Below, in pieces: positions 756-20,096 of a stretch of DNA of 21,974 nucleotides. A program made the translations under genes and the position numbers. Each line of letters begins with the position of its first letter. Position 1 is the stretch's first letter. The notes beneath the pieces are model-generated. The model worked only from the letters and a program-made list of their open reading frames with translations. It was not told the origin of the DNA and made no database searches. This stretch comes from Cochliopodium minus (lineage: Eukaryota > Discosea > Himatismenida > Cochliopodiidae): NCBI GenBank assembly GCA_024220525.1, contig JAMYWO010000465.1:1-21974 (forward strand). The letters are read 5' to 3'.

Positions 756-3700
756 TTAATCAGATTGTTGGTAGAACAGAACTTTTGCAGTTTTTGAGTT
801 AAAACTTTCTTGAGAAGCAACCTTGATTGGTTTGTTATCTTTGGTAAGTAATTGCTCGTGGAATTCTTCCCAAATAGACTTATCTTTCCTCAAAGATTTT
901 GAGCAAGAAAACACACTTTTTTTTTCTTCGCAAATGAAAGAAAACAAATGGTATTTTTTGTTGTTGTTGGAAATTTCTAAGGGGATAGTCACTTTATCAT
1001 GTTGTGGGAAAAGAATGAGGAGAATTTTGGGAAATTCAATGATCTCTTTGGTTTTGGTGATGATGGTATCTCTTCCACATTGTTCGCAATAATCTTTGTT
1101 TTCAATTGGTTGCTGAAAATCTTCAAGATCAATTAAATCTGTATCCAAACAAAGCAAAGAGAAATCAGAGATTATTGGTTCTGGTGAATGTAGATTTGAA
1201 CATTTTGAGGAAACCTTTCAAAAAAGTAATAATTTTTTTTTTGTTTATTGAATTTGAAGGGTCTAGTTAGTTACCTTTAACTTTCCTTTCCAAGGGACGA
1301 TGTCAAGTTCATTCTCAAAGATTTTAAGAAGCCAACTTAAAAACTCTTCGGACCCATACTCTTTTCCCACTTCAAAGTTACTTCCAAGGTAAACACGTTT
1401 GGAGAATTGTAAGATTTGTGAGTTGAACTTTCTTATATTTTTAGTTGTGTAAGTTTTCTTTTGTTTTAGTTCCCTAAAAGATATTCCGTCAAATGCTTTC
1501 ATTACTTTGAGTTTTTCCAAGTCATTTTTGGTGTTATCTTTTTCACACTGCAAAAAAATTTCAAATCTTCTTTTTTCTATTGTACTCAATTCTTCAAAAG
1601 TGAACTTTGGAAATTTGCAATATTCCTTGTAACAACATAATTCTCCACTTCCTTTAAAGTGATGTTTGCAGATTGAGTTTTCGGCCAAATAATCATTAAT
1701 TTCATCGATTTTTTTCAGGCTAAATTTATGAGAGAAATGATGAAATTCAATCTTGTGATTGTTTTTGCAGAATTCATTTGAACATTTCAAGAAAAAGTGA
1801 CTCCAGCAAATCTCTTCTCCTATCATTTGAAACACCCTAAAGAAAATCATCTTGAGAACCTGATGTTTAACAACAAAGGGAATGGCCTTATATTTTACGT
1901 AAATTGAGCCAACAAATGCTTTAAAACAGTCAAGAGAAGAAGAGATTTTCTGCTTGGTAGAAATGGTTTTGTGTTTATTCCAAGATTCTTTAAATTTCTC
2001 ATCTTTTTCAAGAATGTTGATCATTTCAAAAGTAGAATTGAGAGATGCATTGATGAAAGAAGTGGATCCAAAATTCAAGACCCATTTATAATCAACAAAA
2101 TTATTGATCAAGTTGTTGTATTTTTTGTACCACCTTTCAATCAGATTGAAATCAACAATATGAGGTGCTAAGAGTTTGGTCAAGTTTTGAATGATTTCAT
2201 CAATATTAGGTCTTTTTGAAGCTTCTTCTGATAACATTTTTTCGATAAGAGCAAGCCACATATACTTGTTGTTTTCGGGCAAAATCTTTTTGGTGTCATA
2301 ATTCAATAATTTGGAAAAAATGGAGAAAGGCATCTGCATCGTGCAAACGATTTTCTTTGAAATGAGCTCTAGCAAAACAACACCAAGTGAAAAGATGTCT
2401 ATTTTTTCGGTTTTGGGTTTCCCGTTATGAAATTCAGGAGCCATGTACTTTTTAGTTCCTACATAAGTTTCCGTTGTCAAATCCATAGGTTTTGTGGTAC
2501 CAAAGTCTCCCAATTTGGCATGGATTGAGCTTTTATCGATAAACACCAAGATATTGTCCGGTTTGATGTCTCTGTGTAAAATGTTTCTGTCATGAAGATA
2601 TTTCAATCCACTGCAGATATCTGATCCAAGGCTGACTGATGTTTTATAAGTATAGTATTGATTATTGTTAATGTAATCAGTCAAATTGCAAGTTGCCCTT
2701 TCTAATTTTTTTTAAAAAAAAAAAGAATTTTTGAAATGGAAGGATAAATAAAAAATGAATATGAGATAGATACCCAAAATGATCAAAATATCAAAATCTT
2801 GAGATTGAGATTTTTGTACGTGAAAATCAAAATATTTTACGATAAAAGGAGAATCGCAATTTTTGAGATTTTCAATTTCCTTGTAAATCAAAGAATAGGT
2901 ATCTGATCTTTCCTTTGAAATCCCTTCGATTTTTGGGACTTTGGCAACTTTTTGACCCTTGTAGTCGATTTCATAAACATCGCCAAAAGATCCTGATTTA
3001 ATTATATTTTCTTTGGTGAGAGGAAAGCAGTGAGAAGATAGTTTGTATTCGAAAAACTTTTTTGTGAGCATTTCAAAGCACTTATTGTTATTTCTCAAAT
3101 GACCTTCTAAAGATTCGATTTGACTTCCTTTTAAAAGATCATTCTTAAAATTATCGATCGTTTTTCTGAGATTTTGAACTTGAATCTCAATTTGTTCAAG
3201 AAGATTCTTTTTGATTTTTTGGGAGACGGAATTGACATTGGAGAGTTGTTTTTCAAGACTTTTGATCAAGTTTTTTATTCTATCAGATGTGAACTCTTTT
3301 TGCAGATCTTCTCTTTTTTTGGAAGAAATGGCAGTTTTAAGAGGGTAATAAAATAAGTAGCCAAAGAAGGAAATAGGGATGATACCCAAAATCCAAATAG
3401 GTGACACAGCCACCTTTGCAAATCCATTCTCCATTTTGTTTGTGAACTTTACAAAGGTATTCTTGAATGCAGATTCCAAAATATCTCCTGTATTTATGAA
3501 AATGAGTTTTTCTCTGATTTCTTTCTTTATATCTGATTCATCATCCAAAATATCTTCAAATTTTAACGAATCCTTGAAATTTTTGGCCAAAAGATCCAGT
3601 GATCCATTTAGAGCAACCTTTTCTTTTGGGTTGAAGTTAATTTCCTGAAGGTATTCTTCGATTCTATTCTGCAGAAAGTTCTTCAGCTTTTTTTCTAATG

Positions 3701-5679
3701 TCGATTTCTTGTTTTCGTCAGTTTCCGTTTCTTTTTCAGCTTCAAAGATAAGTTCGATCGTAGCAACCATTGCCTTATGATGAAACTTGTTAATCATTTC
3801 TAGTTTCCTAAATTGAAAAATTTTTGAGTTTTGATTTAAATTTATTTTGATATAAAATTTTTTTTTTTTACAGATCATCTTTTTGTAATTTATATGTTCC
3901 GAGTTTTATTTCTAGATGTTTAGAAAACTTCTCTGTCTCCAAATATTCCCTGATTTTTTTGATCCTCTTTTGAAAATTTTTGTGAAGAATCTCATCAATC
4001 TTATCGTTGATCAAATCTTCCCTCAAAAATTTTTCGATCTTCTCCAACATATTTTTCTGTTTGTCAAAAAAATCCCTGTTAGAGTATTTCTTGGACTGTA
4101 CTAATTCTTTTTTTATTGATTGAGATAAATCAAGGAGAAGATCAACATTTCTTTGTAACTTGAAGTTGAATCCCTTTTCGAAGAAAGGAAGAAGCTTCTT
4201 GTTGAGCATCTCGTAATCACTGTTAACAATCCCTTGGAAGATTTTGGATGCAGAGCGAAGATTTGAAACACCAAAGTTTCTTTTGATATCAAAATCATCG
4301 AAAATACTTTTAATTTTGTCTTTGATGGTGGTAATGATGGATGCTCTGAACTCTTCTCCTCTTAAATCCCTTTAAAAAATTGATCAGTAAACTTTTTTTT
4401 TTTGATGAAAAATTAAACATTACAAATGTGTAACCAAAATGAAGATTTGAGAAGAGGATATAAAAAAATGTTCCATTTCTTTGAGAAAATTAACTCCGTT
4501 TATGTTGATCAAAGTGATCGCATTAACAGTAAAAAAACAGATCATTCCCTCTTTGAGATGTGAACAAAGTTTCTCATCTACTTTGAAAATGTCATTCATT
4601 CCAGGCGAGTCAATGAACATGATATTGTGTTCTAGAATATTAATAGGAATAGAGATTTCGACTTTACCCTGAATTTTTTTTTTTTCGTTATCCGTGTGAT
4701 CTTTAATTGAGATTGCTTCTTCTAGAAACTTGCCCAAATTTTTTATGTCATCGGTGCTCATCTTCCCAATGTCCCCATTTAATTGTATTGGACCAAACAT
4801 CTTTGGTTCTTTATCTATCAATGAAGAGACAACTTTTAGTTGCTTGTCATAGTAAACGTGAGTCAAAGTGTTTGTGCAAGGAATATCACTTGATGGAAGG
4901 AGGTTGTGGTTCATGATAACATTAAGAAGTAAAGATTTCCCTTCAAACAAAACAAATAAAGCTTTGCAAATTAACAAAGAAGAAATTATTAAATTACCAC
5001 TGTTTGTGTCCCCAGCTACCATGATTCGAAAATAATCATTTAAATATTCTTTAATATATTCAAATTTTTTTTTTATGTTGGGTGTATCTAGCTTTGGAAT
5101 CTCTTTGAATACATTAAGAAGTGAATCATGCAATATCTTCTCGAGGATATTCTTTTCTTGGCTATACTTCTCTAATGCTATTTTGATTGTCTTCACAGAA
5201 TCCCTATTTATCTTCAATGATTTTAAATGAGGGAGAATTATCAAGATTTTTCCTATGGATAGTTCCATTTCAATCAATTCTTCTTCTTCTAAAATCAATA
5301 TTTGTTCCTCTGTATACTTTCCATATTCTATCATTTGGCTATAAATTTTTTCCTTTTGTTTCTTGCATTTATATGTGAAGGACAATTTATTCACCCAATT
5401 GCATACTTCTTTATATTTTACTTTCTTTATCTCTTGATTATTATTTGTATTATTTTCTATCAAGCTCTCAATTTTTTTTATTTTATCCATAATTAGGATT
5501 ATATACTCGTTTTTGATTCCCATTCTTTCCAGATGATCCCTTCTCAGCGAATAGAATTGCTTGGCTTCAAAAATTTCATTATCGATCAATTTTTCATATA
5601 TTAATTTCTTCTCCATCTCTCCAATATCTAACGTTTCCAACAAATCATAAATATTTGGGAACTTTAATTTTGAGTTCAT
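756..5679 (-). CDS. SAM-SAM-dynamin-like GTPase-membrane hairpin-protein kinase-pseudo-USP fusion protein, 1538 aa
   Basis: Exons in transcription order: 5679-4998, 4940-4424, 4369-3872, 3807-2774, 2701-1275, 1214-756; the five introns are 54-72 nt. Two SAM domains lie at about residues 8-72 and 93-155. The GTPase follows: P-loop GDTNSGKS 223-230, switch I Thr250, DSPG 338-341, G4-like THLD 398-401. Long helices (401-690), a hydrophobic hairpin (698-725) and a coiled coil (727-800) recall mitofusin/BDLP-type dynamin-like proteins. The protein kinase has GSFGDVY 838-844, Lys855, HRD 953-955, DFG 976-978 and APE 998-1000, so it looks active. A USP fold follows: Cys-box GSTSF 1122-1126 with Ser1125 where the catalytic Cys belongs, EEFL 1362-1365 for the QQDAHEFL region, CEQC 1429-1432, and an ending VLFYQQ. 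Introns interrupt the P-loop, the G4 motif, the kinase and the USP, and one exon each spans hairpin-to-kinase and kinase-to-USP, so it is one gene. The start is the first ATG after an A-rich leader. Known of the families: SAM oligomerises and dynamin-like GTPases remodel membranes. Inferred: a membrane-bound signalling scaffold. Confidence 0.85.
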
Positions 5680-6006
5680 TTTTATTTATTTTAATTTAAT
5701 CAACAATTTTATAATTTTTCAATTTTAATTATTCTCAACATTAATTTAAAAAATCAAAAAGAAAATGAAAAATTAAATCGATGTCCAAATGGAAGGGATG
5801 AAGTTTTAAATATTTCTTTTTCATTTTTTCTTAATTCTTTCTTATTTTAACCTTCAATTTATAACAATAGACCTTTATAGTATTTAATTATTGAAGGTAT
5901 TGTAATTGAAATAAGAAACAATTAATCATTGATTTTTAAGATTTCATTTCTGAAACTGATCTGAAAAAGCTTAAAAATTTTAAAAAAAAAAAAAAATTGA
6001 AAAAAA
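5680..6006. promoter_or_regulatory. Divergent promoter gap between the GTPase-kinase fusion and the Sel1-MYND gene
   Basis: This 327-bp gap separates two outward-facing starts and must carry both promoters. It is almost wholly A/T, with homopolymer runs; a run of more than ten A's sits just before the + strand ATG and an A/T-only leader precedes the - strand ATG. No discrete motif could be assigned. Confidence 0.5.
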
Positions 6007-7263
6007 ATGCATTCAAACGATAATAATAAAGTGGATTCAACAAATAATGATAAAGAAGAATCTATTGAATTATTAAAACAGGGAAGACTATTCCTCTCGG
6101 AGAAGAATTCAGAGAAAGGCTTGGAATATTTGTTGAAAGCAGGTGAGAAGGGTAACATGGAAGCATATACCACCTTGGGATGCATCTATCTGTTAGGACA
6201 AGATCAGATCAAGAAAGATGAGAAGAAGAGCATCGAATATTTCGAATTGGCAGTGAAGGGAGGTGATAATGAAGCGGCATATAATTTGGGATGTTTACAT
6301 ATGGAATCTAATAATATCACAAAGGTATAAAATTCAGATTTAATATCAATATCAACAATTGATTTAATATCAATATCCAATTATATATAAATATAAAAGT
6401 TGTTTATTATATATAACATTAATTCAAAGAATATGATTACAATTATCAGCATCAAAATTTATCTAAATATATCAAATCAATATGTTTCATTGGAATACAG
6501 CATTATTGAAATTGCTTTGAATATGATATTTCTCGAATTAAATTTATTTGGTTTGAAACAAAATGGAATAATGCTAAAACTGGATTATAAGATTAGCCTT
6601 CACTAAAATTAATTTTTAATTTGCTGTATAATAATAATAATATTAACTGAATCGAATCACAAACAAAAAATTATTTAATTTATTTAATTTATTAAAACTT
6701 TCATTTATTGAATATTTTTTCAATTAATTGTAAATGTTTATTGAACTTTTACAATATTTTTAGGGATTGGAATACCTTCATAAAGCTTCTGAAGGGGGTT
6801 TGGATCATGCCAACTTTAAACTTGGAAGATATTACTACTTTGAAAAGGGAGTAGAAAACATCAAAAAAGGTTTAAAAATATTTAATATTTTAAATTTTTT
6901 TTTGATTTGAAATTTTTTTGATTTGAAATTTTTTTAATTTGAAATTTTTTTAATTTGAAATTTTTTTAATTTGAAATTTTTAATTTTTTATTTTTTTTAT
7001 TTTATTTTTTTATTTTTTTCAATTTTTTATTTTTTTTATTTTATTTTTTATATTTTAGCAATACACCACTTGGAAATCGTTGCCAAGAAGGAATGCAAGG
7101 AAGACCACCAAAAAAAATTTCCTCTCAGAGCCAACATCGTGTTGGGAATCATCTACGGTACCGAAAAGGAATACAAAGACTTTAAAAAGGCTGCTCATCA
7201 CCTCGAAATCGCAACTTTGGGTAAAAATTTAATTTACTTATTTTTATTTTATTTTTATTTTTA

Positions 7264-8865: not shown

Positions 8866-11023
8866 TTAATTCAAAAGCAATTTTTGGTAAGCAGTGTTGA
8901 CGTCGATGTGGCAGCCTTTCTTAGGAAGCAAAACGAATCTATTCAAGCTGTTTTGATGCCAGCTCTTGATCCTCTTGATGATGTTGACATTTTCAGGCAA
9001 GGCAATGACTGTGAAAGAAAAAAATTTTAGTAAAAAAATTTTTTGAAAAATACTTTTAAGAAATTAAAAAAAATATTTTTTTATTCTTTTTTTACATTTT
9101 TGTTGATCCACTTGTTCAATGATCATCATAGATTCAGCATATTGACCCAAATTCATGGCAGTACAAGCGAGATAAGTCAATTCAGGGACGGTAGTGGTAT
9201 TATCTACCTCGACTACAGTACGGGAACCGTTCTTGAGGTAAATGGTAGATTTCTTTTTGATGTGGTACTTGACGGTTGTGCCCAGATCGTTTAAGTACTC
9301 TTCCAAAGTGTCGTTTTCCTTGTGGTACTCTGAAATATAGTTCAAATATCCGTTGGCTACATTGTCGTCCTCGATATAATCGAATGGATGAAAACCTATG
9401 AGTGGTAAAATTAATATGAAATTAAATAAAATAAATTAAACAAAGTAATGAGAACATTTTTATTGAAAAAAAAATTAAATTAAAATTTTTTCATTAAAAA
9501 AAAATACCTAGATTGTCGGAAATTTGATGGTTAGCACCACAACGTATCATGTGCTCGAGAATTTCTTTGGACAAAGAATACTCACAACCGACATGAAAAG
9601 AAGTCTTTCCCTTACGATCAGGGATATTAGCCTGAAAAAAAAAATTAATTTTTAAAATATAAAAATTATTTCAAAATTAAATTCGTAAATAAAAAAATTT
9701 TTTTCAAAAAAAAAACCAACCTTCGCGCCATTCTGTAGGAGAACCCTCACAACATTCTCATTTTTATTTCTACAGGCCATATGAAGAACAGTCTCGCAAA
9801 GATTCTTTTCGAGGACGTTGGCGTTGATCTTGTGTTCAACGAGGAGCTTTCTCACGATCTCCTCATCTCCTTTTAGGACCGCTGCGATGAGGGTTTTGTT
9901 TCCCTTGGCGTAGTACCTTTGCGCGGAGTCTGTTTTTTTCGATGCTTCTTCCGATTGAGCCAAATCCTCTGTTTTTCAAAATAAAATTTAAAAAAAAATA
10001 TAAATAAAAATGAAAATAAAAAAAAGTTTAAAAAATTTGAAATTTGAAACAAAAAATTTGAAATAAAAAATAAAAAATAAAGAAAATAAAAAATAAAGAA
10101 AGAAAACATTGGAAAATTTTTTTTTATTTTTTTACCAAGCAAAGTAATCAACTCTATTTTTTTCTTTTCTTCCTTTCTTTTTACTTCCAACTCGATATCT
10201 AACTCATCCGTCAAGTTTCCCATTATCCTATCGAATTCGTCTGAACTATCGTCTCCAGGGATGTACACATCGTCCTCATAATGGAGTCCCTTCCCCTTCT
10301 CTTCGCCCACTTCATCAAATTCTTCAAGCTGTCCATTTATTGAAAAATAAAAATTAATTGATAATAAATGATAATGGATGCATGGAAAATTAAAGGAGTA
10401 TTAAAGGATTGATGTTGAACAAAAATTCTTGATCAAGAATTACTTTAGATTTATATATATAATTAATCTTTCATTGAAAAATATGATAGAAGCTTTTAAT
10501 CAACATACAATGATAAATTAATCAATGTCATCTTGATTCAAATTATTTGGCCTTTCTGAAATTGAATTTATAACATGATATTAAATTATTGATCAACGGT
10601 ACCCAAATTATCATATTCTCAATTTGTATATGTACCTTTTGTTGATTTAAATTGATCCTATTATCGATCATTCAAGAATAAAAATTTTGATTGTAAATTA
10701 TTCTCAAGATGTAACTTATTGAATCAAATTAATATATAATCTGAGAAATTTAGTCTGTTTGAAATATTATTTATATTCTTTTATATAGATAAAGGAGTAA
10801 GTACTTGTACTTTACATATTGAATTTAAACTTACATAAACAAAATTCTTCTCATATGTCCCTGTATGTCTGTCTATCACCCTTTGTTTCTTTTGGATATA
10901 TTCTTCAGGATTCATTATCCTTTTATCCAATTTAGATTTGATCTCAAAGATTTCCTCCAACATTTCTCTATCCCCTATCCTACTTTTATCCTCCATTTCT
11001 ATTGTATCTTTAGCATTATACAT
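8866..11023 (-). CDS. Ankyrin-repeat protein with SHOCT-like N-terminus and C-terminal ubiquitin-like/RA-like domain, 398 aa
   Basis: Exons in transcription order: 11023-10835, 10328-10136, 9968-9721, 9631-9508, 9395-9096, 9008-8866 (TAA). Residues 21-52 form a short helical hairpin (EIFEIKSKLD...NPEEYIQKKQ) resembling a SHOCT motif. An acidic, probably disordered stretch follows (about 64-125). Ankyrin repeats span about 146-260, with clear signs: TLIAAVLKGDEEIV, TVLHMACRNKN, VVRVLLQNGA, KTSFHVG, CGANHQI. Residues 300-382 read as a ubiquitin-fold domain of RA or FERM-N type (TIYLKNGSRTVVEVD, VPELTYLAC, FVLLPK), a fold that often binds Ras-family GTPases. The first intron is unusually long (506 nt) and joins NFVY to LEEFDE in phase 0; the others are 87-167 nt. 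Likely a cytosolic adaptor. The ankyrin call is strong, the C-terminal domain moderate and the SHOCT likeness weak. Confidence 0.82.
10329..10834 (-). other. Long 506-nt first intron of the ankyrin gene
   Basis: The donor TAT|GTAAGT is close to the metazoan consensus and the acceptor is GGACAG|CTT. The interior has no open frame but contains an 18-bp perfect palindrome (10424-10441) and a GATCAACGGTACCC patch near 10590. It is more than three times longer than most introns in the window and could hold a regulatory element. Confidence 0.6.
10424..10441. repeat. 18-bp perfect palindrome
   Basis: AATTCTTGATCAAGAATT equals its own reverse complement over its full length. It sits within the long first intron of the ankyrin gene. 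Such a site could bind a dimeric protein, or it could be chance in AT-rich sequence. Confidence 0.9.
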
Positions 11024-11245: not shown

Positions 11246-12594
11246 ATGGATTTACCAAAACCAAACTTTTATGCATCAATTGATTTGACTGGAGATAATA
11301 TAGCAGCAGTATCCAAAGATGATACTGTAAACTTCTACAAGCCAGAGGGGATAGTGAAAGGATATCAAACAAAATTCAATGATGGGAAGTCATTCACACC
11401 AAACAAGGTAAAAATGGATTCGATTATTTAAATTAAAATCAAAGAATAAGGCGTATATGAACCGAATAATTTATAAATTTAAAAATGTGGGAAAAATAAC
11501 GATTTTCTTTAATTTTTTTTATTCACAACTAATTCGATAGCTCCTGTTCCAAGATAATTCATCCAAGATGTTATTCCTTACACCAAACAAAAGAAACATG
11601 ATGGTGGACTACGATGTGGAGACAGGGACGAACATAGGAGAATTGCAGCTGAAATTCGATTCGACCTCAGATAGCATCAACATAGATGACGTGACACCAG
11701 TCAAATTGTACGATCAAATCAAGTCAAACTCTGTGCATAAGTTGGTTGGAGTATCTAAGAGATCATTAATGAATATCAATTGGGATACAAGAGAAAAACA
11801 AAAGAATGGAGAGATGCTCATCACCCCTGAAGAAAGAAAATCAATCACAAAGAGAAATCATCAATATACCAAGATAGTCACCACCAAGGAAGGACATGTG
11901 GCAGTGGGTGATATGGATGGAAGCGTATCGCTGTTCACCAATCCCAGCGAGGGCAACTGGAAGATAGCCAAGACCAAATTCACTCAGCTGAGTGATCCTG
12001 TGTTGGCAATTGATGTCAGTGGAAATGGAGAATGGGTCATCTGGACCACTAAAGGTAAAATTACTTAACGAAATAAAGAATTATAAAGATAAAATATTAA
12101 AAAAAATTTGAAATTTCAATTTATTCAAATGTATTTTAAATTTCAAAGAATATATTGCTTTGGTTCAAACTGAATGGAAAGACGAAGAAGGTATTCCTTA
12201 TTCCGGCTTTGAGAAGTCCATGCAAACCAAGTACAGAAACCCTGCATTGATCTTGCAGCTCTCAGAAGAGGAGAGAAAAAGGTACGACATCAAAGAGATT
12301 AACTTTACACCTGCATGTTTCGACAACGGTACCATCATAGACAACAATCTCATCACAGAAGAATTGATCGCTACTTCCACTGGAAAATACACAATTTATT
12401 GGAAAATGAGACACGTAACTTTGGATTACAAGAAGGGCAGATATTCTATGGATGAGAGTTGTGCCAGAAAGGCTTTTATTAGGGAGCACAAGAAGGAAGT
12501 TTTGGTGCAGAAATTTGAGTACAAAACTAACAAAGGTGGAGACAACTTAGTGTCTGCTTTGAGCGATGATTTGGAGAGATTCAATATCAATTAA
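11246..12594 (+). CDS. VID27-family protein (C-terminal propeller domain only), 373 aa
   Basis: Exons: 11246-11407, 11541-12054, 12149-12594 (TAA), with introns of 133 and 94 nt. The product matches the conserved VID27 C-terminal domain along its length. Signs include MLFLTPNKRNMMVDYDVETG (a structural strand and MD/ETG turn), VGVSKRSLMNIN, FTQLSDPVLAIDVSGNGEWV followed by TTKEYIALVQT, and a basic C-terminal segment IFW-like (TIYWKMRHV). The family is named for yeast Vid27, linked to vacuolar import and degradation, and its plant relatives are CYPRO4-like; the biochemical role is unclear. Full-length members are usually longer, with an N-terminal PH-like region that is absent here. The ATG follows an A-rich leader, so the short form looks genuine and not truncated. 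It is divergent from the ankyrin gene and convergent with the cathepsin gene. Confidence 0.85.
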
Positions 12595-12762: not shown

Positions 12763-14207
12763 TTAAACCTTTGCAATGGTGACTTCATCAGCAACACCAC
12801 AGAGATTTTTGTTTCTTTCAACTTGTAAGTATCCACCTTGACCCCAAGATGCACCCCAAGAGTTTCTGATCCACCAAAAGTTAGTTCCATCAGAAGCAGT
12901 ACCATAACCAGTGATTTGGACGCAGTGATCGAGGTTTTGACCACAGTTGCTCTTGATGATACCTCCGGTGTAGTATTGCCAGCTGGATGCATCAACACAG
13001 ATGGAAAGAGGAGCAGTGGAGTAACTAAAAAAGAAAAATAAGATTGAATTCGTGAATGTTTTTGTTTAGATGGAAATTTCAAAAGAATTTTTTTTTCAGA
13101 TTTTTTTTTTTACAGAACATTTTGCATTTGGGTTTCGTTCTTGGTGGTAGTTGCATAGGACCATGAGGAGATAGATGCAGCAATCAAGCTAGATTTGAAT
13201 TGGCAAGTTTGATCAACAGCTTCATAAGGATCTTGATAGAAAAAGAAATAATATTAATAATAGAAAGGTATAAGGTTAAAATATCAAATGAGTGAGTATA
13301 AATTAAATGTTTGCTTATGATTTATAATTTAAAATATTTTTACAGTTTGCTTCAGTTTCCAATCCTCCTGCAGAGATGACATATTCATAAGCAGTAACGC
13401 TATAAAAAAAGGTTATAATTAAAAATTGAAAATTCAAAAAAGAAAATGAGATTTACGTATCTCCACCATCACATCCATCATCAGTGGTATCACAATCGAC
13501 GATTTGTTGTTCAGACAAGATTTGTTTGGTCTTTCCAGCCAAGATCCATACAGATTCGACTTCTTGGGTAGTGGAAAATGCCCAACTATAATTTGAAAGA
13601 AAAGAATTAGGTATTCAAATTTCTTTTTTTCGAAAATTCTTTGGAATTTTTTTTTTGAACATTAAAGATTCTGAAGAAAATTTTTTACCAAGATCCACAT
13701 TGTCCTTGATTTTTAACTGGAGTAACTGGGTTAGGGGATTGATTTCTCCAATCATAGTTTGCAGGGATATCCTTTACTTTTTCAGGATCAACTTGGAATA
13801 CTGTTCCTTGGGATTTATCAGATTGTTGGAATTTCTTCATCAAAAACATATGTTTGAATCTTTTGATTGCATTACAATATAAATATTATAAAAATAATAA
13901 CAAATTCGTATTTTATTACTCAGATGGGGAAAGATCAGTGAATTGATTTGCTCCATAAGATGCTCCATTGAAACTGTTGAGCTTTCTAATGGTCTTCATG
14001 TTGTTAAGAAAGATTCCGAATCTTTTGTTTTGTTCTTCTTTGGATTTATAATTTCTATTGAAATCTTTCTATAGAATTAGATTCTATTAGTTAGTTACAA
14101 ATAATTGATTTAGAAGAATATACCATATATTTGAAGAATAAATCTTTATCGGTTGCTGCAGAGCATACAAATACAAGGCAAAATACAAGTAAAATTGTCT
14201 TCATCAT
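12763..14207 (-). CDS. Secreted cathepsin L-like papain-family cysteine protease (C1A), 322 aa
   Basis: Exons in transcription order: 14207-14124, 14068-13920, 13859-13689, 13585-13457, 13399-13344, 13231-13114, 13024-12763 (TAA). A signal peptide covers residues 1-18 (hydrophobic, ending CSAA). The I29 inhibitor propeptide spans about 22-80 (KRFGIFLNNM, NQFTDLSPSEF). The mature enzyme starts near residue 110 (IPANYDWR). The oxyanion Gln129 lies in QGQCGSCW, the catalytic Cys is 135, the His is 269 (LDHCVQITGYG) and the Asn is 290 (WWIRNSWG), so it should be active as a lysosomal or secreted endopeptidase. The zymogen length is typical. The catalytic Cys codon is split by an intron (TG|T). 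Two in-frame ATGs open the gene (14207 and 14204); either works as the start. Clustered introns are 55-112 nt. Confidence 0.95.
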
Positions 14208-15408: not shown

Positions 15409-16784
15409 TCAAAAATAAGTCAACATAAATTCGTAAATGAGCAAAGCAGAGGAGTGCTTGATGAATGCCCTTAACTAAAAATACAAAAAACAATTAAAAA
15501 GCAATTAAATTAAAAAGATGGAACATGTTAAATGAATTCTTACAACACAAGCCCGGTAACCCTTGACGAACACTAACATACCACCATCCTTTGCAAGCAG
15601 AGAAGATGTCTCAAAAATTTTATTGTACTCTCCATTAGGGCCTCCTTGCTGAATCCTTGTCTTGACAACATCAAGAGGATAAATGGCAGTCCAAGAAACA
15701 ATTCCAGCAATTCCTTGGAAAAAATAAGGTTTTTTACATCTTAAAAAATTATTATTTAAATAATTTTTTTTTTACCTCCACTCAAAAATATTGGAAATAT
15801 TTTGTCTCTGAATCTGGATTTATCAATATTGTAAAAGGGGTGTTTGTGAATGAGTAAATGTTTTAAATATTCGTAAGTAGTAAAATAAACACAAGTCCCT
15901 GTAAAATTTAAAATAAAAATAAAAAAAATTAATTAATAATAATAAAAAAAAAAAAAATAAAAAAAATATATTTATTATGTTTGTGACCTATTGTGTCTCT
16001 GTATAGTGAAGGAACAATCCCCTTGTAAAGTTTTGTAAAGCCATTATTATACATTTTTTTCAAACAGTCATAAGTGTTTGAATACCTCTCACTGTTAACT
16101 TGAAGTCTAAAATTTTTTTTACATTTTTTATTAAAGTTAATGATTTTTTTTTTCATAAATTTTTACTGTATTTTTGTATTTTCTAATGGGAGAAATGATA
16201 TGGTTGGTAAGATGGTTGATGTAGCTCCTGATACAGCCACATAGTAATAGTTAATGATTTTTCCATGGTTCTCTCCATCTAAATATCTCAACATTGAACC
16301 GTATGACTATGATAAAAAAAATTTTAAGAGGAGATAAAAATTTTTTATGAGAGGAGATTAATTTTTTTGATATATTTATTACTCCAAACATTAATGCCCC
16401 AAATATTGTTGATGTCAACATTGGTGGGATGATCCCATAGAATAATGATTTTGTTCCTTTTTCAATGATTGATTTTGATTCATTTAAAAAATCACAAAAA
16501 AAAATAAAAAATTTATTTGAAGCATTATCTTGTTTATTTTGTCAATCAAAACTATTCTGATTCATTTTTTATTATGAATCTTTTTTTTTACCTTCTTGTA
16601 TCACCATCTTGTTTGCACAATCGAACATATTTTTGTACAGATAGGGATTTATCTGCATTCTCGCCTTGATTGTATCGAATGGATGTGATAATAATGTAGA
16701 GGAGATGCTAGAGAAGATTCCAGAGAAAAAATTGGAAAAGAAATTCTTTTGATCTTTTGGCTTGTGGATCTTATTTTCCAACAT
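15409..16784 (-). CDS. Mitochondrial carrier family (SLC25) transporter, 294 aa
   Basis: Exons in transcription order: 16784-16592, 16456-16383, 16306-16167, 16106-15988, 15898-15776, 15713-15544, 15474-15409 (TGA). The three carrier repeats each keep their P-x-[DE]-x-x-[KR] signature: PFDTIKAR from residue 35, PLENTKIQ from 129, PLDVVKTR from 229. Glycine-rich matrix-loop motifs follow (LYKGIVPSLYRD, FVKGYRACVLRAF), and the protein ends YEFMLTYF as is usual. Carriers exchange metabolites across the inner mitochondrial membrane by alternating access. The length is typical. The substrate cannot be read from the sequence; an amino-acid or carnitine-type carrier is possible. The intact carrier implies a mitochondrion or a related organelle. 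The first helix starts about 14 residues in, with no long targeting presequence, which is normal for carriers. Confidence 0.92.
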
Positions 16785-16932
16785 TTTTTTTTATTTTTAT
16801 AAAATCAAAATTTTTCGAAAAATTATGATTTACAGATGGTATTCATGATACAATGTTTTTCAAAATTTACTTTAATTCACCAAATCCTTTTCTTGTGGTA
16901 AATTTTGGATTTACAAAAATTAATAAAATAAA
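16785..16932. promoter_or_regulatory. Short divergent promoter gap between the carrier and Arp-SH3 genes
   Basis: Only 148 bp separate the two start codons, so both promoters must be compressed here or overlap 5' ends. The gap is A/T-rich, with CAATG-like and TTTACAGATGG words near 16840-16860 and no clear TATA box. Confidence 0.5.
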
Positions 16933-19900
16933 ATGAATGATAATAGCACATTTATTTTCGATATAGGATCAGATTCAATCAAATTTGGGTATGCCAACTC
17001 AATTCCCTCGATGGAGAAAAATATCCTAGGAAAGATGGATTCGTAAAAAAAATATAAAAAGTTTTTTCCAGTAATTTTAAAGAACAATGCCAATAAATTG
17101 ATAGGAATAACATATCAGTAGGGATGGATAAAGAATATAGTATAAAATTTTATATCATGTTATTTTTGGATTAAATTTTATTATTTTCCTTCAATTTAAA
17201 TGAACTGAAAAGTATATTATGGGAATGAAGCATGGAAGAGATATTCGATGTTATCAATCAAATATCTGATGGATAAGAACAAAATTATCGATTTTAACAA
17301 TTTAGAGAAGGTGAATTATTATGAATAGAAATCAAATAAGATATTTATTCAATTTGTCTGTGAAATTTTATTTTTTTATTTTCATATGTTTTTAATAGTC
17401 CATCGAAAACATTCTCAACACAAAATACGGATCAAACATCATCGAAGATAACAAGATCATATTGACGGACAATCTCTACAACGAATGGAAACAAAAGGAG
17501 AAGATGGCGAACATCTTTTTCGAAACTTTCGACGTGAAAGAAATGATCATAGCGCCTTCACCACTGTTGTCATTATATTCCACATCACTAAAATCTGGAA
17601 TAGTTATAGACAGTGGTAAATAAAACAATTTTTTTTTTTTTGAATTCAATTGTTATTTTTTTTCATTTCTACAAAGGTCATGGCTCAACCCACGTATTTC
17701 CGGTGGTTGATGGTGACTTTTTTGTTCTATGTGATTTAAAGAACTTTAATCATTATTTTACAAAGGAAAAAAGACAAAACTAGAAAGGTGAACTTAATAA
17801 TCATTTTTTTTTAAAAAAACACAAGAATTTTTTATCTTTAAAATTTATGAGGAAGAATTAAATAATAGCTCCAACAATTTTTTTAAAATATTATTTTAAA
17901 TCAAAATTCATTAAAAATAGCATAAAAACATTGAGTTTGGGAGGAAGTGAGATAATGGAGCAAATGAAACTTTTGTTATCTCTTCCTAATAACAAACTGG
18001 CTTGTGAAGCAAAAGAAAAACTTTGCGAGTTCTCGTTAAATGGATCCTTTGGAGATTCTAACATAGATACATTCGTTCTTCCTGATCAGTAAGAAATTAT
18101 TTTATAAGAAATTTAAATTTATTTTATTTCTGCAATAATGAATGAAATTTTTACTTTTATTTAGTTCTACTATATCGGTCAAGGAAGAAAGGTATAGAGC
18201 TACTGAGGTTCTTTTCGAGCCCATTACCACAGGATCCAGCGAGAAAGGCTTGCACACCTTTTTCTTTGACTGTTTGGGAGGCTACGAAAAAACTGACTTC
18301 CACAAAATCCTCTCCAAAAACGTTGTTTTGACAGGTGGTTCTTCTCTTATTCCCAAATTCAAAGAAAGACTCTTATATGAATTTTCAAAGAAGAAATTTA
18401 CACCCACCATAACTACCACCAATGTAAAAAAAAATTTTCAATACTTGTTATTTTTATGAAATTTTTTGTTATTTTTATTTTTATTTTTATTTGTAAATAA
18501 TTATAAATAATTTTAGGATGGAAGATATTCTAGTTTCAAAGGCGCCAGTGTGATATCCAGTGTTTGGGGAGATGAGTTTTGGATCAAAAAGTACGACTAT
18601 GAGGAAGAGGGAGAACAGTCTATCTTCAAAAAATCTCCGCTAGACGACTCTTCTCTCAAAACTAACTCTTCTTTCTGTGAGTCTTCTGGTGAAGTTAGAT
18701 TTGACCAAATAGAAAGAGTTGTTGGGTTGCATGGTAAATAATTATAGAATAAAAACATTCTAATTAGTATTTTATTTTATTTTTAATAATTAAAGATTAC
18801 AACACCCAAGAACCCACCAAAATCTCTTTTAAAAAAGTAAACCTTTTAAAATATTTTTTTTCCCATTCATCTGATTAATTAACAAAAAATAATTAGGGGG
18901 AAGTTTTGTTTGTCATAGACAAATGTTTCAAAGGTAGATTTTTATTTATATTTTTTTTATTTAAATTTAATTAATTAAATATCTTAGAATGGTGGAAAGC
19001 TTGTGACGAAAAAAAGACTCGTGTTGGATTGGTCCCTTCCACATTTGTTAAATCGATCACCCCACTCAAACTCCAGATAGAAGCGAATAGCGACTTGGAA
19101 ATCTCGAAGAAAGAAATTTCCCGCCTCACAAAAAAGATAGAGCAGTCCCAAAAGAAACTGACAGAAGCTTTGCAGAAGGAAAAGAAACACGAAAACGAGG
19201 TCAAAAATTTGGAAAAGGTGATCAAGGAGAAAAACAACCATCTCAAGCTTTTGGATCAACAAATCAAAGAAAAGACGAAGAAACTCGAAAAAAAACTGAA
19301 AAAAGAAAAGGAATTACTCGAAAAGAAGGAGAAAGAGAAAAGTAGTAAAGAAAGCCCCAAGGAAGTCACAAAAGAAAGTCCTGTAGAGTCGAAGGGAGAA
19401 AAGGTTGTTGAAAACAAACCGGTTGATTCTGATAACACCCAAATTGATAATAACACCAACACTACCAAGCATGTTTCTTTTAAGGAGAATAAAGGAGAGA
19501 ATGAACTTTTGGCGAGTACTAAAAATCAGTTGCAACTTGAAATTGATGAAAAAAACAATTCCATCTCTAATTTAAATCTGTCAATTTTTTTTTAATTTTT
19601 GTTTTTTTCAAATTTTTATTTTTATTTTTTTTAAATTTTTTTATTTTAATAATTTTTATTTTTTCACTTTTAAAGGGAGGCCAAAAAACTGCAAAAAGAA
19701 ATCGAAAATTATAAAAAAATTCTTGAAAGAAAGGAGAAAAGAGCCTCCATTTTGCCCAAGAGGGAGGAGATCGAAAAAGAGCTCGAGATCGGACTTCCTA
19801 ACAGCGAAACTGTCTATGTCGTCAAAGAAATATCCGACGTGGAGAAGGTCAAGCGTGAGTTTTTCTTTTCCATCGGTTTGGAGCTTAAAATGGATCTGAT

Positions 19901-20096
19901 CAAGAAGGGCATCTTCATCAACATTGATCTTAACGACATTTACGAGAAAATGATTGACGTCCCTTATTCTGGTTGGTATAATCATTTGCAACGTAAACAT
20001 TTTTTATTTTTTATTTTTATATTTTTGTTTTTTTTATGTTCGCCTAACAATAAAATTTCTATAGAAAATTTCCAAAACCATATTGAAAAGAAATGA
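16933..20096 (+). CDS. Actin-related protein fused to an SH3 domain and a long coiled coil, 720 aa
   Basis: Fourteen exons: 16933-17042, 17105-17139, 17231-17310, 17399-17615, 17677-17712, 17766-17787, 17921-18088, 18165-18423, 18517-18733, 18796-18836, 18897-18933, 18988-19579, 19676-19992, 20065-20096 (TGA). The actin fold fills residues 1 to about 355. Phosphate-1 loop: DIGSDSIKFGYA, from residue 10. Phosphate-2 loop: VIDSGHGSTHVFPV (DSG 146-148). Also seen are IKTLSLGGSE, ERYRATEVLFEP, adenosine motif VVLTGG (about 276-281), GASVIS, and an EYEE.G-like end. At 377-429 an SH3 domain follows: VVGLHDYNTQEP, ISFKKGEVLFV, EWWKA and GLVPSTFVK. A Lys/Glu-rich coiled coil with a Ser/Pro-rich linker fills 440-640. 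The C-terminal stretch (about 650-720) is unknown. Exon 9 carries both the actin end and the SH3 start, so the join is real. The product may nucleate or cap actin-like filaments, with the SH3 recruiting proline-rich partners; this is inferred. The small exons 2, 5 and 6 are least certain. Confidence 0.82.

Follow-up and report, generated by a model that had tools for sequence, protein, structure and literature searches.

Actins and actin-related proteins (Arps) are mostly single-domain proteins, probably because neighbouring molecules occupy their surfaces. Actin parts fused to other parts are already known in a few settings. Filactin of the amoeba Dictyostelium, whose actin family is large, is a longer protein with a long N-terminal extension and an actin domain that closely resembles conventional actin (PMC2441452), and PMC8292509 describes the primate POTE-actins as POTE ankyrin domain family members with an actin part fused to other parts. 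Arp53D of Drosophila, a divergent Arp outside the canonical classes, has an extra tail that confers localisation; this extension is short and N-terminal, and the term SH3 is absent from the main text of the source (PMC8291977). Here we describe a gene on a 21,974-nucleotide (nt) stretch of Cochliopodium minus DNA (contig JAMYWO010000465.1, positions 1 to 21,974; hereafter the window, which is C450 of the 598 contigs in the 44.65 Mb assembly GCA_024220525.1) that is predicted to join, in one open frame, a divergent Arp head to an SH3 domain, a coiled coil and a C-terminal tail domain.

The arrangement differs from that of filactin, in which the extension is N-terminal and the actin conventional-like, whereas here the SH3 domain, coil and tail follow a divergent head on its C-terminal side. 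Literature searches returned no description of an Arp-SH3 fusion among the matches listed, and the combination of Arp, SH3, coil and tail was not found described. Proteins of the filactin type combine filamin repeats with a conventional actin, and the C. minus protein, whose Pfam matches at 0.01 are confined to Actin and SH3-type models, is not one of them. POTE-actin, a young fusion of conventional actin, is not known to carry an SH3 domain. The best match in the protein database (2.6e-29) was P0003 of Anaeramoeba ignava, another multi-domain, divergent protist actin. By eye it has two actin folds in a row and it lists only PF00022, without an SH3 domain; this 767-residue protein is annotated as 'actin-7-related' and reads as a tandem actin.

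One open frame runs from the actin fold into the SH3 domain

The gene is modelled as a chain of 13 exons on the forward strand (16933-20096) that runs stop-free from ATG to TGA and encodes 742 residues. All 12 introns are GT-AG, measure 54-138 nt and have a G+C content (GC) of 14%, against 36% in the exons, and the modelled exon junctions are in phase. A genome search with the window protein indicated that the assembly holds one copy. The join lies in exon 8 (18517-18733). Here the actin fold closes (YSSFKGASVISSVW...WIKKYDYEEEG), and a linker of roughly 30 residues leads without interruption to the first SH3 strand (VVGLHD); the exon has neither an in-frame stop nor an ATG. The SH3 part continues through exons 9 to 11 and is split by introns at 18734-18795, 18837-18896 and 18934-18987. 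A preliminary description of the window had given the same exon and the same three introns, which our model matches exactly; it had also read the actin fold as passing into the SH3 domain within this exon, and the open frame together with the Pfam Actin and SH3 matches bears that continuity out.

A start codon of its own before the SH3 region had been named as what would speak against a fusion. No in-frame ATG occurs across residues 205-698, and when the frames of exons 8, 9, 10 and 11 were walked upstream, a stop preceded any ATG in all four. A separate, AUG-started SH3 gene is therefore excluded in this frame. A transcript that kept the intron at 18734-18795 would meet a stop in this frame after GLHGK, and an Arp-only product made in this way is possible. 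Together, these features support an Arp-SH3-coil fusion at the level of sequence.

From exon 4 onward the chain was read from splice sites and phases. For exons 1-3 we enumerated chains of at most three introns, allowing GT or GC at the donor and AG at the acceptor, and ranked them by similarity to the genome's own actin. There were 489 open chains, 108 with GT-AG introns only, and the top scorer was an all-GT-AG chain that also yields a D-loop-like segment (ISVGMDKEYIYYGNEAW compared with VMVGMGQKDSYVGDEAQ; the D-loop is the DNase I-binding loop of actin). An alternative exon 2 in the open stretch 17062-17117 (FFPVILKNN...) had misfitting phases and a frame that looked broken, and was dropped for the enumerated chain. 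The idea of a pseudogene was likewise dropped, given a clean all-GT-AG chain with clear actin similarity. The junction between exons 5 and 6 (17713-17920) is ambiguous: among 785 enumerated chains scored against the same actin, the one we chose (donor 17731, acceptor 17868) scored 171.5 and was joint third. It was outscored by two chains (179.0 and 176.5), both in frame, that include a short exon with its end at 17787; the higher-scoring of them has a 14-nt micro-exon and gives a protein 15 residues shorter. In view of these higher-scoring chains, the insertion at the exon 5/6 junction is not certain.

Introns seen through a transcript agree with the model. P0019, a protein derived from a Trinity transcript of the same species, matches a gene on contig C202 at 99.5%, 100% and 97% identity over its three largest exon matches, and mapping it there gives three GT-AG introns of 53, 77 and 240 nt with 5-11% GC. 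These are introns of the same kind as those modelled in the fusion gene and they support the gene model.

The head is a full-length but divergent actin fold

The Pfam Actin model (PF00022) covers residues 3-370 at 3.8e-53 (181 bits against a curated cut-off of 27; profile positions 3-408 of 410), which places the head in the actin/Arp superfamily with a full-length fold. Exons 1-3 (16933-17042, 17105-17139 and 17213-17310), obtained by the enumeration and covered by the Pfam match, hold the start of the fold with the first phosphate loop (DIGSDSIKFG), the D-loop-like ISVGM and YYGNEA. The remaining core, including the second phosphate loop (DSGHGSTH) and the TGG motif, lies in exons 4-7 (17399-17615, 17677-17730, 17869-18088 and 18165-18423). 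Both phosphate loops and the TGG motif are thus present, as had been claimed for a full but divergent fold.

At the level of single nucleotide-binding residues the agreement is partial. Eleven of the 24 actin positions checked are identical (D11, G13, S14, K18, D154, G156, G158, H161, K213, E214 and G302), and five have changed: N12 to I, G15 to D, Q137 to S, D157 to H and V159 to S. In actin, Gln137 and His161 position the catalytic water; a head with Ser in place of Gln137 could plausibly bind ATP but would hardly hydrolyse it fast. As far as these residues indicate, the head probably takes up nucleotide to stabilise its fold and has little hydrolytic activity. NCBIfam gave two matches on the head-SH3 part, both far below cut-off.

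A sequence search of the PDB with a 374-residue query (partial head plus SH3) was topped by dynactin Arp1 (PDB 5adx) at 121.7 bits, with the best actin at 105.5, among the best 60 of 357 matches. In contrast to this likeness, the head does not group with Arp1 in a tree of 29 sequences built on profile columns, nor with the Arp2-like, Arp3-like or conventional actin rows. Its best position is beside an Arp4-like clade, at 77% support, that contains P0010 (named brg1-associated factor b) and locus L034. The head branch measures 1.49 substitutions per site and is the second longest of the 29, exceeded by L042 (1.64). All the alternative placements survive the approximately unbiased (AU) test (Arp1 0.333, Arp2-like 0.322, Arp3-like 0.406, conventional actin 0.121), which leaves membership in Arp1-3 unsupported rather than excluded. 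The head is not a conventional actin, in that it falls outside the actin clade and has lost Gln137, although the AU value by itself does not reject that grouping. The sequence is best described as an unplaced, divergent Arp: placement among the Arp families, which the preliminary description had called for, settled on no family.

An SH3 domain and a two-part coiled coil follow the head

The SH3 domain (residues 402-451; 18727-19052, exons 8-11) was recognised by Pfam SH3_1 (PF00018) at 2.8e-11, with 43.3 bits against a cut-off of 22.9, in agreement with the earlier reading, and two variant SH3 models match the same stretch. Searched alone against the PDB, it had GRB2 as its best match (1.8e-10). 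The aromatic and proline surface for peptides is the signature of SH3 domains, and here the sequence shows GLHDY (of the ALYDY type), WW and PSTFV, with the first Tyr changed to His and the last to Phe. Binding to proline-rich partners is plausible from the SH3 match. To name formin, WASP or myosin among them is conjecture.

A charged coiled coil of roughly 200 residues had been proposed after the SH3 domain. A coil is present, in two pieces rather than one. Coil A (residues 461-555; 19080-19364) is 56% charged and has a heptad periodicity of 182.7 against a shuffled mean of 44.5, a value reached by none of 1000 shuffles. Residues 556-610 show no heptad periodicity (p 0.719), and the shorter coil B, tested over residues 611-660, gives a modest signal (p 0.045); this linker and coil B occupy 19365-19826, interrupted by an intron at 19580-19675. 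Dimerisation through the coil is plausible on the heptad signal of coil A.

Copies of the tail domain lie downstream of kinesin, RhoGAP and PH domains

The C-terminal domain (residues 678-742; 19827-20096) is encoded by exons 12 and 13, with an intron at 19993-20064 and the TGA at 20094-20096. With the window protein as query, its last 65 or so residues matched two other places in the genome, on contigs C183 (4.2e-6) and C384 (6.2e-4). Using the C183 and C384 pieces as queries in turn brought the tail to ten places outside the window, each at 0.0034 or better: C183, C384, two on C29, two on C78, and one each on C46, C202, C217 and C4. Weaker places on C160 (0.12, 0.08), C2 (0.98) and C148 (0.65) were left out of the count. 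In a ten-row alignment (A3) that includes the window and has one row for both C78 copies, F13, L18 and K21 are invariant, and the window protein has this F, L, K pattern at its C-terminus, after a coil. The domain had been called unknown. Pfam assigned no family to it or to the C183 tail frame, and the one match from a PDB profile search, to PYST1, was at 0.088, in line with that claim; it is not unique, given its recurrence.

We read the upstream context of the tails exon by exon and scanned it with Pfam. On C4 (L070) the tail stands behind Kinesin (6.7e-44), FHA (4.6e-5) and PH (1.9e-5) domains. One copy on C29 (L064) follows RhoGAP (1.5e-19) and a coil, with a PH domain between them that was seen by eye and went unreported by Pfam. 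The tails on C183 (L029; PH, 1.1e-8), C46 (L067; PH_3, 1.8e-9) and one copy on C78 (L066; PH, 2.1e-6) each follow a PH-type domain and a coil, and that on C202 (L068) follows a coil. The C217 tail is 51% identical to that of C4, and the part far upstream of it is masked. For the other C29 copy, the other C78 copy and C384, no neighbouring domain could be named. A role for the tail can be proposed by association only.

Scored against the best-sharing 8000 candidates of the protein database, the ten joined tail pieces matched four proteins, P0019-P0022. Three of them (P0020-P0022) are 57-84% identical to the C183, C4 or C202 tails in their best matches and therefore come from relatives; within these candidates the tail looks lineage-restricted. 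P0019 starts inside a 970-residue frame on the reverse strand of C202. Pfam found nothing in this frame; it contains RLAGEFGNALLETNSRL, and its N-terminal part may resemble the CC1 box of dynein adaptors, a likeness that we do not use as evidence.

Searches for a second fusion and genes around the locus

A search of the protein database for orthologs used residues 1-385 of the 661-residue tail-end piece of the protein. It gave 16 matches from 6933 candidates, none listing both actin and SH3 Pfam domains; proteins under about 363 residues and multi-exon genes in unannotated contigs fall outside this search. The entire 661-residue piece, for which candidates were dominated by coiled-coil words, recovered two SH3 proteins.

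Within the genome, actin gave 83 exon-level matches and SH3 gave 103. From the actin count it follows that divergent Arps are common in this genome. When the two sets were compared by eye, no actin place was seen to be followed within a few kilobases by an SH3 place on the same strand, a comparison that misses intron-split SH3 domains such as the one in the window. Nor was a fused SH3 seen, again by eye and in frames of at least 55 residues, at ten divergent actin loci, among them L035, which is largely masked, and L040, which is cut by a contig end. The genome carries an expanded, divergent actin family.

Further genes lie in the window. About 150 bp from the fusion gene and divergent from it, the first exon of a mitochondrial carrier gene lies on the reverse strand (16575-16790; Mito_carr, 2.5e-11), with more carrier-like frames seen by eye down to about 15930. 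Also on the reverse strand, 1266-5685 looks like a dynamin-kinase gene from its domains, a Dynamin_N GTPase (1.1e-12; 4423-5685) adjoining a same-strand protein kinase (Pkinase, 1e-33 in 1266-2711 and 0.0011 in 2715-3905). A Sel1-repeat gene (6001-6327) and a VID27-like gene (11541-12591) are on the forward strand, and an ankyrin-repeat gene (9655-9975) and a papain-type cysteine protease (12766-13065) on the reverse. An Rfam scan of the window gave no match, and no transfer RNA was found in it.

Discussion

We read the protein as an adaptor or scaffold with a divergent Arp head, an SH3 domain for proline-rich partners, a dimerising coil and a tail for membrane or motor cargo, a proposal that we favour tentatively and would place somewhat short of probable. 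If the gene is expressed, as we infer, the head would probably contact a filament end, through actin or another Arp, and not build filaments itself. The C-terminus of actin lies on the barbed-end face and the D-loop on the pointed-end face. Since the C-terminus of the head continues into the SH3 domain, further addition at the barbed face would be hindered, and with a D-loop-like segment kept, a filament-end binder or cap is likelier than a polymer subunit. The SH3 domain would bring in proline-rich partners and the coil would pair two heads as a dimer. The tail, which would share a docking system with the kinesin, RhoGAP and PH proteins, may deliver the whole polypeptide to whatever membrane or motor cargo is served by the kinesin-FHA-PH, RhoGAP and PH-coil proteins. 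A more specific version, in which a dimeric, actin-headed cargo adaptor engages actin ends, recruits assembly factors through its SH3 domain and joins the kinesin/RhoGAP/PH cargo system by its tail, linking actin ends to microtubule-borne membranes, is unlikely as it stands.

Several observations weigh against the adaptor proposal. The window protein directly reaches only the C183 and C384 tails at 0.001 or better, and the other places are connected through those two. The joins of the tail to kinesin, RhoGAP and PH domains rest on order and strand, not on transcripts, and the tail might simply cap the coiled coil. The filament-end argument draws on general knowledge of actin; the five substitutions in the head also count here, and its long branch is as compatible with relaxed constraint as with a new function. 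Lastly, the protein database yielded no transcript or ortholog of the fusion, though P0019 shows that transcript-derived proteins of the species are in it. This absence is weak evidence against expression, given that proteins under about 363 residues lie outside the search.

The strongest rival accepts the fusion as lineage-specific and takes its actin fold for a relaxed, non-functional or merely structural relic, with SH3, coil and tail making up an ordinary adaptor. The long branch, the Ser in place of catalytic Gln137, the lack of a close relative among the 16 matches and the many divergent loci behind the 83 actin matches, which make loose actin evolution common in this genome, all favour it. 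It is nonetheless doubtful, as a relic would be expected to lose what the head retains: a full-length fold match, the main phosphate-loop residues and a frame open over the actin exons. Quite unlikely is a canonical Arp, of the Arp1/dynactin or Arp2/3 type, that gained a tail and works in a filament or nucleation complex. The PDB ranking of dynactin Arp1 above actin and the presence of the tail behind a kinesin motor agree with such an origin, while the tree groups the head with none of these classes and prefers the Arp4-like side; moreover, the genome already has an Arp2-like (L006) and an Arp3-like (L041) gene, by labels that we assigned. Dynactin Arp1 itself is a single-domain protein.

We regard it as very unlikely that neighbouring genes for an Arp and for a coiled-coil protein with an SH3 domain were misjoined by the model, or that the two proteins are made separately through alternative ends. 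Retention of the intron at 18734-18795 would end an Arp after GLHGK and no transcript of the fusion was seen, against which stand an exon 8 common to both halves, in-phase junctions and an SH3 frame with no ATG before the upstream stops. Least probable of all appears a nuclear relative of actin, of the chromatin (Arp4-like) type, to which an adaptor was fused: the weak grouping with the P0010 and L034 clade that suggests it is likely due to long-branch attraction, the AU test separates nothing, and the cytoplasm is suggested by the SH3 domain and by a tail that elsewhere follows kinesin, RhoGAP and PH domains.

The tentative adaptor proposal, if true, would mean that the actin fold is usable as a recognition head and that C. 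minus has a natural actin-to-microtubule linker. The tail family, for which Pfam and the PDB gave no convincing match, could act as a code for cargo or membranes that proteins of this lineage share.

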